This document shows positions 13,401 through 16,400 of a DNA stretch of 64,000 nucleotides, piece by piece. Below the pieces are notes generated by a model. That model was given only the letters and a program-made list of their open reading frames with translations. It was not told the DNA's origin and did no database searches. Each line of letters begins with the position of its first letter. Position 1 is the stretch's first letter. The translations under genes were made by a program, and so were the position numbers. The DNA comes from Tubulanus polymorphus (taxonomy: Eukaryota; Nemertea; Palaeonemertea; Tubulaniformes; Tubulanidae): contig NC_134035.1 of the NCBI RefSeq assembly GCF_964204645.1, positions 11,761,951 through 11,825,950 on the forward strand. Reading direction: 5' to 3'.

Positions 13401-16400
13401 CTCCATCGGCCATATACACCAACGACTTCGAAGAAGCTTTCTCCGGTAATTTGAGGCATTATAGATACAGCGGCGATAGTTTTTGCGGGGCGTACAGCTT
13501 GAAAAACTCGTATGATATCCATGTCGACGAATTCAAGGTAGAACCGTCGGGAACGTATCTATGTTTCGCGTACAAATCTAGTTCACACATTTCACGCTTA
13601 CATTTCCGCGCGTCGTATAAAGATGATATATTCGCCAAGACAAGGAAAATCCTTTATCTTTACCCTACAGTGGACGGATTCATCTCTGATTCTCGGTAAG
13701 CGTTTTTATCAGGGTGGTTAATAATGTGAAACACTGATCAGTACAAGTGCTATCCACTGGGGGTGAGAAAGCGGGGTGGGGGAGGGGGATCGAAGGCGCA
13801 AATTACAGTGTTGCTAGATGTAGACATAAAGCCTCGGATATAGAAATTTCGATTTAATTCTACCGATTCCGGAGTTCTTTTCTGGGGCGTTCGTTATGAC
13901 CAGTGTAAGCTCTATGTATTCCCAAATAGCATAATCTGTAAAGTGGCCAGAAGGGAGTTTGTAATCTGGAATTGATATTTTCAAACCGAAATGCATCCAG
14001 TCGAAAACTGTCCATGATTTTAAGGAGGTGTGGTGTATATCTTGTCGGTCAAAACGAGCGATCTGTTTTCTCGAAACTGAAGATCACTCCCTGTGAATCT
14101 GAATATTTTGCAGGTGGCACTATCGTTGCATTGAAGTGTACAATTTATTGACGACAGCGTACGGAAATACCATGATGGAAACAATTGTAGAATATGTCAG
14201 TAGCTCTCCCAGACTGGACTACATCGACACAGTGGCAATTATGAAGAATCTGCCGCCCTCGTTATCACAAACAGGTTTGGCAACCCTTAAAACATTTCAA
14301 ACCAATAAGAACCGTCATAATGAATAGGCCTTTTCACTTCCTTGATATGCGGGTATTTCGCAATTTCAAAGAAAAATGTTTCGACAACGGATATGAAAGA
14401 AGATAACTTTATTCACCCACACAATGTCATCGTACAAGGATATAGAAAAACATGGATATTAATACACTATGTATAGAAACAAAATATTTACAGAGCATTT
14501 CAACATATCTATGATATTCAGTGATAATTTAGGGTCCTGAAAAGAACTAGATTAGATTAGATTTTATTTTACTTATAATCATCGCTATAATACATATACA
14601 TTATATTTACGGGCAGAGTCATCGATTTTCAACACAAAATTTAATATAGTAAATAATAAATTATAGTAAATTTTACCAGCATAATTAACATAGATGGCGA
14701 TTCACGCATAATATGGTTTTCTTTGTTTGTTTCGTTTGTCTCTTTCTTTTAATTATAATTAACTAACATATATACTACATGCACGAGGGACCCCTTTCAC
14801 AGAATTAATGTAAAAGGTCATTCAAATATGACATCACACAATCATCTGCATGTGCGTGCAATCACCGGTCCACGTATCGTTATCGTGCATGCCCTTTCTA
14901 CATGATGACGTGAAAACGACATTCTTGCCTAACTCTCGTGTACCGTTTGAGTAGATATCAGGTGGGAGGAACCTGTAGAACTCGTCAGCCTGTTTTTTTG
15001 GCAACCACAACAATAAATATGCGGCGTTGACGATCGATGTAACGATAAATCTAACTTTTTGAAGTTCCGTGAACGGATAATAAGATAAAAACCCACGATC
15101 TACAGATTAACAGAATTTAAAAACAAGAATTTATTTATTCAATCTAAAATATATATATAAGACACGACGTTTCGATCTCACCCTAGAGATCATCGTCAGG
15201 TGTGAGATATAGACTAAAAACAGGGGTATATATACAGAGGAGAACAGGTTAATTGAGTAAATTGGTGAGTGAGTAAATAATTAGTGTTTGGCAAGGCATG
15301 AAGTAATATACTTAGAAAGAAGGGAACGGGTGTCGTCTGATGTCGTCTGATTCAGAAATTATTACGTACAAAACTTATTACTTTCTATTTTCATCCGCAA
15401 TCAGATGAGTTCGTACCGAACCGTCGCGAAGCCTTACCGCAGCGAATATCAGACGTCGACGTGACTCGATCCGACGACGGATACTTGATCGACATCACAC
15501 CGAAAGAATGCTCGCACAATTTCGAACTGCTAGCTCCGTACAACTCCTGGCCAGAAAACGAACAAGACTCCGAACAGGCAAGAGATACCAGTACCCCCTT
15601 CTCTTGAATTACCATAGAAGAAGCAATGTTTGATTTGCGAGACATTTCTCGGGAAGCGCTGTTTCACTGTTGATGTTCCATTGAAGCTGGGCAGTGTCCA
15701 AAACCCTCTCTACTCATATATAGATATCTGGCCATATGCAGTGAAATTAAAGTTTGTTTAAATCCGCTTCCAGCATTTGAAGGCTATGACCAAACTCCTA
15801 TAAACCTTCAAAGCCAAAGTAGACGAACGCGCGAGCATCTAGAGCTCGAATTAACCAATCATCTCCCAAACTTAACAACTCGTACATGTTACTATAATAA
15901 AAATACAATCCAATGCAATAAAACTCGGTTCATACTTTATTGGTACCAGCCTAAAGCAATAATAATCACTCAATGATTCTCCTATTAGGATGAGAGGGGA
16001 GACTTGTATTCGCAGACGACCTGGCCGACTGGCGTGGCAGTTAACGTAACTCGCATCAGCGACGCCACTCCCGGAATATCCGGCGAATTCGATATCATTT
16101 TCCAACGGAAAAAGAAGTTAGGTGAGATATCGATATATTGTCAGAGAGAATACGTAATGATTTCATTATTGCAGACGTATGAATTTCATACATAATTCAC
16201 AATCTATTTTCCATCAGAATGGACCATTGGTGCGCCAGAGATCGTCGAAGATACCAAGTTATTCAGTACGTTTTTCAAAGTTTGCCAAACAAAATGAACA
16301 AAAATGAAAAATAAACCAAGCGGTCGTCATAATTGTCGCGAATGAGGGTGGTGTAATATCGCTTAATTCGGCAAATCTTGCCAATCAATCGCCGGAATAT

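Follow-up and report, generated by a model that had tools for sequence, protein, structure and literature searches.

The minus strand of a 64-kb stretch of Tubulanus polymorphus DNA (the window, meaning the whole stretch analysed) was predicted to hold, inside an intron of a PKHD1L1-like gene, the hammerhead ribozyme of a Penelope-like element (PLE). This raises the question of whether so short a motif is real, what kind of element would have left it there and whether it could still cut. Our analysis confirmed a hammerhead-like motif at 15203..15162 of the minus strand, and its anatomy makes it likely, in our judgement, that a PLE of the Penelope/Poseidon kind left it here as its minimal type I hammerhead, which sits where pLTR and ORF join, the copy being severely truncated or decayed. 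The least expected point is a start codon lying within the ribozyme core, which would explain an extra base there and is an arrangement that has already been published.

Motif architecture

Sequence reading and a descriptor scan agreed with the original prediction in coordinates and strand, the minus strand from 15203 to 15162 reading ACAC-CUGACGA-U-GAUCUC-UAGGGU-GAGAUC-GAA-ACGU-C-GUGU, with the following parts.

15162..15203, minus strand: whole 42-nt minimal type I hammerhead motif (sequence reading, descriptor scan)
15200..15203, minus strand: stem I 5' strand, ACAC (descriptor scan)
15193..15199, minus strand: core CUGACGA, C3 to A9 (sequence reading, descriptor scan)
15192..15192, minus strand: one U inserted after A9, ahead of stem II (the descriptor needs one inserted nucleotide)
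15174..15191, minus strand: stem II, GAUCUC/GAGAUC, with loop UAGGGU (descriptor scan)
15170..15173, minus strand: core GAAA, G12 A13 A14 A15.1 (sequence reading, descriptor scan)
15167..15170, minus strand: ACGU palindrome, able to form helix III only between two copies (sequence, descriptor scan)
15166..15166, minus strand: C17, with predicted cleavage 3' of the base (sequence)
15162..15165, minus strand: stem I 3' strand, GUGU (descriptor scan)

Every part originally named (CTGACGA, a 6-bp stem II, a 6-nt loop, GTC and a complementary stem I) was found on the minus strand. With a stem I of 4 bp, a stem II of 6 bp, a 6-nt loop and a GUC cleavage triplet, the motif combines the CUGANGA...GAAA core, the UH cleavage site and the stems I and II that mark a type I hammerhead. 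Against what we take to be the consensus, the letters C3 U4 G5 A6 N7 G8 A9, G12 A13 A14, A15.1-U16.1 and H17 (here C) are all there. The statement that all catalytic core positions are present holds for these letters but overlooked U15192. A9 is usually, if not by strict definition, joined directly to stem II; here that U is inserted between them, and because it is an unpaired extra base the core is not fully canonical. Helix III, claimed as a minimal ACGT, cannot form within a single molecule because only 2 bp without a loop would be available, but it could form between two copies. This absent or minimal, dimer-capable helix III is a trait of PLE hammerheads, and the sequence supports the minimal Penelope-type type I layout that had been proposed.

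A candidate start codon within the core

A9-U-G spells an ATG at 15193 of the minus strand, immediately after G8, which makes C17 nucleotide 28 when the A of this codon is counted as the first. The start codon of the putative ORF is located at stem II, as in the Poseidon element of Anolis, and because A9-U-G would serve as that start codon the extra U is likely accounted for. An ATG at A9 needs just a U and then a G, and chance could supply one. Two features belong to this part of the locus.

15131..15193, minus strand: candidate start of a PLE ORF, with ATG = A9-U-G and 20 codons followed by a stop (layout as in Anolis Poseidon)
15201..15234, minus strand: TATATATA, 21 nt, TCACA, a weak promoter-like layout lying partly outside the candidate 89-nt insert described below (likeness to an Adineta vaga pLTR)

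Within a complete element, one transcript would receive two such motifs from the tandem pLTRs. Their ACGU stretches would then pair as a 4-bp helix III, with stem I joining one copy to the other and cleavage of each core after its C17, and the A9-U-G of the core would open the ORF. Upstream of the motif core lies the arrangement TATATATA-21 nt-TCACA, and TATATATA-20 bp-TCACT is reported from an A. vaga Penelope pLTR, which takes in the initial 12 aa of its ORF, or 22 with its tail (PMC3846280). These TATA/Inr and tail-length likenesses were spotted after the fact and are weak. The output of a bacterial promoter scan was disregarded as uninformative for an animal genome.

Ends of the candidate insert

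The possible limits of the inserted piece are marked by a shared 8-mer on either side of the motif.

15118..15125, plus strand: TAAAAACA, candidate target-site copy, partner at 15215-15222 (shared 8-mer)
15215..15222, plus strand: TAAAAACA, candidate target-site copy, partner at 15118-15125 (shared 8-mer)
15126..15214, minus strand: candidate 89-nt insert delimited by the two TAAAAACA copies (suggestive only)

This candidate insert contains the entire hammerhead, and its 3' end lies 68 nt (~22 codons) beyond the A that opens the ATG, a distance that would equal the length reached by the end of the A. vaga pLTR with its tail; the fit was noticed late and is offered as a suggestion only. If the TAAAAACA pair bounds the insert, the TATA-like site falls outside the element. 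A rival pair of flanking 8-mers, TATATATA, occupies 15152-15159 and 15227-15234. Shared flanking 8-mers occurred at 743 of 5000 random places, and at 723 of 5000 when three or more different letters were required; because they are so common by chance, neither pair is taken as proof of a target-site duplication. The target-site duplications reported from A. vaga measure 8, 9 and 10 bp, and solo pLTRs that lack both other element sequence and target-site duplications are described there too (PMC3846280). An outer A/U helix that would extend stem I is not claimed here, because the DNA on its 3' side could belong to the target.

Element proteins and further copies

A Pfam scan covered 20 ORFs of 80 aa or more, comprising nine within 2 kb of the motif (the longest of 118 aa), one TIG ORF and ten more across the window, and found no RT or GIY-YIG domain in any of them. 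The weak sensor-domain match of the minus-strand ORF at 15394-15663, beside the motif, fell below the cut-off (E 0.065) and was disregarded. The descriptor scan found no second hammerhead in the 64-kb window, where there was likewise no significantly similar sequence elsewhere, no pLTR repeat and no further copy of the motif. To this extent the results run against the presence of a Penelope-like element at the site, and because the RT and GIY-YIG coding region is absent from the ORFs scanned we call the motif a remnant and not a PLE. Since neither such domains nor a second hammerhead nor a similar sequence was found in the window, the case for PLE descent rests on anatomy.

The same searches bear on the alternative that the motif is what remains, on its own, of a non-LTR retrozyme of animals, a non-autonomous element of short tandem repeats with type I hammerheads. 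Retrozymes are described as widespread in animals and low in GC, and the present motif resembles theirs in being of type I in low-GC surroundings; their hammerheads, however, are reported to be normally arranged in tandem and in invertebrates mostly to possess a stable helix III (PMC7229834), unlike the motif described here. Tandem units with one hammerhead each were not seen within the window, nor was any repeat of the motif within 8000-22000, and a start codon beginning at A9 agrees with a PLE. A retrozyme origin therefore seems unlikely, and PLE descent remains the reading that we prefer.

Possible chance resemblance

A resemblance arising by chance was assessed with a descriptor that allowed 0 or 1 extra nucleotide and required at least 4 pairs in stem II and at least 3 in stem I. 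Within the 64-kb window it matched at the motif site only. Among 3000 dinucleotide-preserving shuffles of the window, 14 contained a match, showing that a looser form of the motif does arise in random sequence, but none of these 14 (the first match per strand of each shuffle) combined a stem II of at least 6 with a stem I of at least 4 pairs, as the motif does. These figures somewhat overstate the significance, because the site was picked by a reader seeking oddities.

The core seed was present in at least 139 IMG/VR loci (19 in one scan and at least 120 in another). Of the 139 core-seeded loci listed, 40 had a stem II of at least 4 pairs; among these listed matches stem I was never longer than 3 and none matched in both stems, the number of independent sequences being small because a single phage sequence recurs among the 40 in many nearly identical copies. 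When the stem II of the motif itself was used as a pattern, neither viral_contigs nor genome_contigs gave a match, and a further pattern scan of viral_contigs was also negative.

Other observations favour chance. The original prediction had named the lack of a covariance-model hit as grounds for refutation, and Rfam gave no such hit, a result that goes against the claim: no hammerhead was found at the gathering threshold across the whole window, nor at E up to 10 in segments of 601 and 81 bases, a search that had no positive control with minimal PLE forms and whose matches, to snoRNA, miRNA and CRISPR-repeat models, all scored far under the respective gathering level. In our opinion this null carries little weight, since an inserted base and the lack of helix III take the motif far from the usual consensus. 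The extra nucleotide in the core also fits a random origin, and folding of the 91-nt strand is ordinary (z -0.99, with 32 of 200 shuffles equally good). Weighing these points against the stems that neither the shuffles nor the listed IMG/VR loci equalled, we consider a chance resemblance quite improbable, and continue with a PLE remnant as the favoured origin.

Predicted folding and activity

The best predicted fold of the 44-nt monomer, at -16.3 kcal/mol, is more stable than the hammerhead fold at -10.7, a gap of 5.6 kcal/mol, and is predicted to pair the core GACG with CGUC in the strand that would be cleaved. With two copies, the prediction is -22.5 for the active dimer, in which helix III has 4 bp, compared with -33.6 for the best fold. 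These energies omit the tertiary contacts of the core, and for that reason they do not by themselves exclude activity. The predictions nevertheless speak against efficient cleavage by a lone copy, for which cleavage of any kind is uncertain, and the motif is probably silent at its present site. Among core insertions tested at other places in natural hammerheads, some are reported to impair the ribozyme (PMC3088659). That the motif still serves as a working ribozyme on an antisense transcript is highly improbable, its core letters being intact but the window holding a single copy, helix III being impossible in the monomer and the predicted monomer fold blocking the core.

Host gene and neighbouring sequence

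On the plus strand, Pfam placed TIG-domain ORFs at 18.1 kb and at 22.3-23.9 kb, and at 27.5-29.0 kb an ORF with a CEMIP beta-helix, whose only PDB sequence match is a cell surface hyaluronidase. This make-up is consistent with a fibrocystin-L (PKHD1L1)-like gene. The motif sits on the opposite strand, ahead of these ORFs in the direction of the gene, with all domain ORFs at higher coordinates. On its other side, the ORFs at 1487-2116, 9555-9932 and 11614-11958 gave no Pfam match above the cut-off, and because of this an intron location is plausible and no firmer. The proposed placement inside a PKHD1L1-like intron accordingly stands as to strand, but domain ORFs on one side only leave the intron itself at that level. 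As expected, the host pre-mRNA would escape cutting by the motif, since the sense transcript would carry its reverse complement.

Several further features of the window were recorded. At 12909-13232 two direct repeats interleave, one of 72 nt at 81% and one of 42 nt at 98%, with copies ~160 nt apart, and an inverted repeat with 64-nt arms, 92% complementary and spaced by 13 nt, lies at 18455-18595. Long TA microsatellites at 36117-36478 and 51030-51127 yield spurious long ORFs. A long plus-strand ORF at 54390-56705 carries DUF1759 and DUF1758 by Pfam, a combination that we take to be that of BEL/Pao-type retroelements. Beyond it, on the same strand, the tandem and very similar 320-aa ORFs at 57323-58285 and 60280-61242 have, by eye, the look of intronless rhodopsin-type GPCRs.

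Discussion

The dimer-capable layout and the start codon in the core together suggest a PLE remnant whose ribozyme would have worked in pairs within a complete element and would have lost its function once it stood alone. The useful point is anatomical, in that the start codon would explain the extra U of the core. The competing GACG/CGUC pairing could also account, in a way open to testing, for PLE hammerheads that might cleave inefficiently as monomers or depend on protein. A bolder, and in our view unlikely, extension is that a start codon overlapping the core sets cleavage against translation for use of those bases, that the GACG/CGUC pairing silences lone copies until a partner copy or the protein of the element refolds them, and that such a switch would survive at the present site as a fossil.

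The additional core nucleotide has a natural counterpart, reportedly described by De la Pena and Flores in 2001 in a viroid hammerhead. That viroid is reported to be chrysanthemum chlorotic mottle viroid, in which the base follows A9. The two motifs are alike in carrying one extra nucleotide beside A9 and differ in that the viroid motif is of unrelated origin. PLEs and Terminons carry minimal type I hammerheads, the class in which we would place the present motif; these are said to have been characterized by Cervera and De la Pena in 2014 and by Lunse et al. in 2017.

Such hammerheads without helix III are reported in their thousands from many animal genomes, where they are mostly dispersed in non-coding DNA, and some map to the pLTRs of PLEs and may cut as dimers (PMC7761336, PMC6155905). 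Acropora millepora, for instance, is described as having more than 6000 type I motifs, up to 1508 of them canonical and the rest resembling the PLE form. The motif reported here adds one dispersed minimal hammerhead to these thousands. It shares with the PLE/Terminon hammerheads the lack of a usable helix III, the proposed dimer action and the dispersal in non-coding DNA (PMC7761336), whereas its own descent from a PLE is something that we infer.

The closest likeness is to PAc, the hammerhead of the Anolis carolinensis Poseidon element, compared here by description and without alignment. According to the published account, C3 and G8 of PAc precede the start codon, the ORF starts at stem II and the cut falls 26 bp downstream, compared with 28 nt here (PMC11167929). 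The two differ in that the present ORF stops after 20 codons, and in that PAc was not cleaved in vitro without the protein of its element, although the same source mentions self-cleavage of a PLE hammerhead in earlier work at 3 to 25 mM Mg2+ (PMC11167929). In the overlap of start codon and core, the Tubulanus motif thus resembles an arrangement already described for a PLE of the Poseidon kind.
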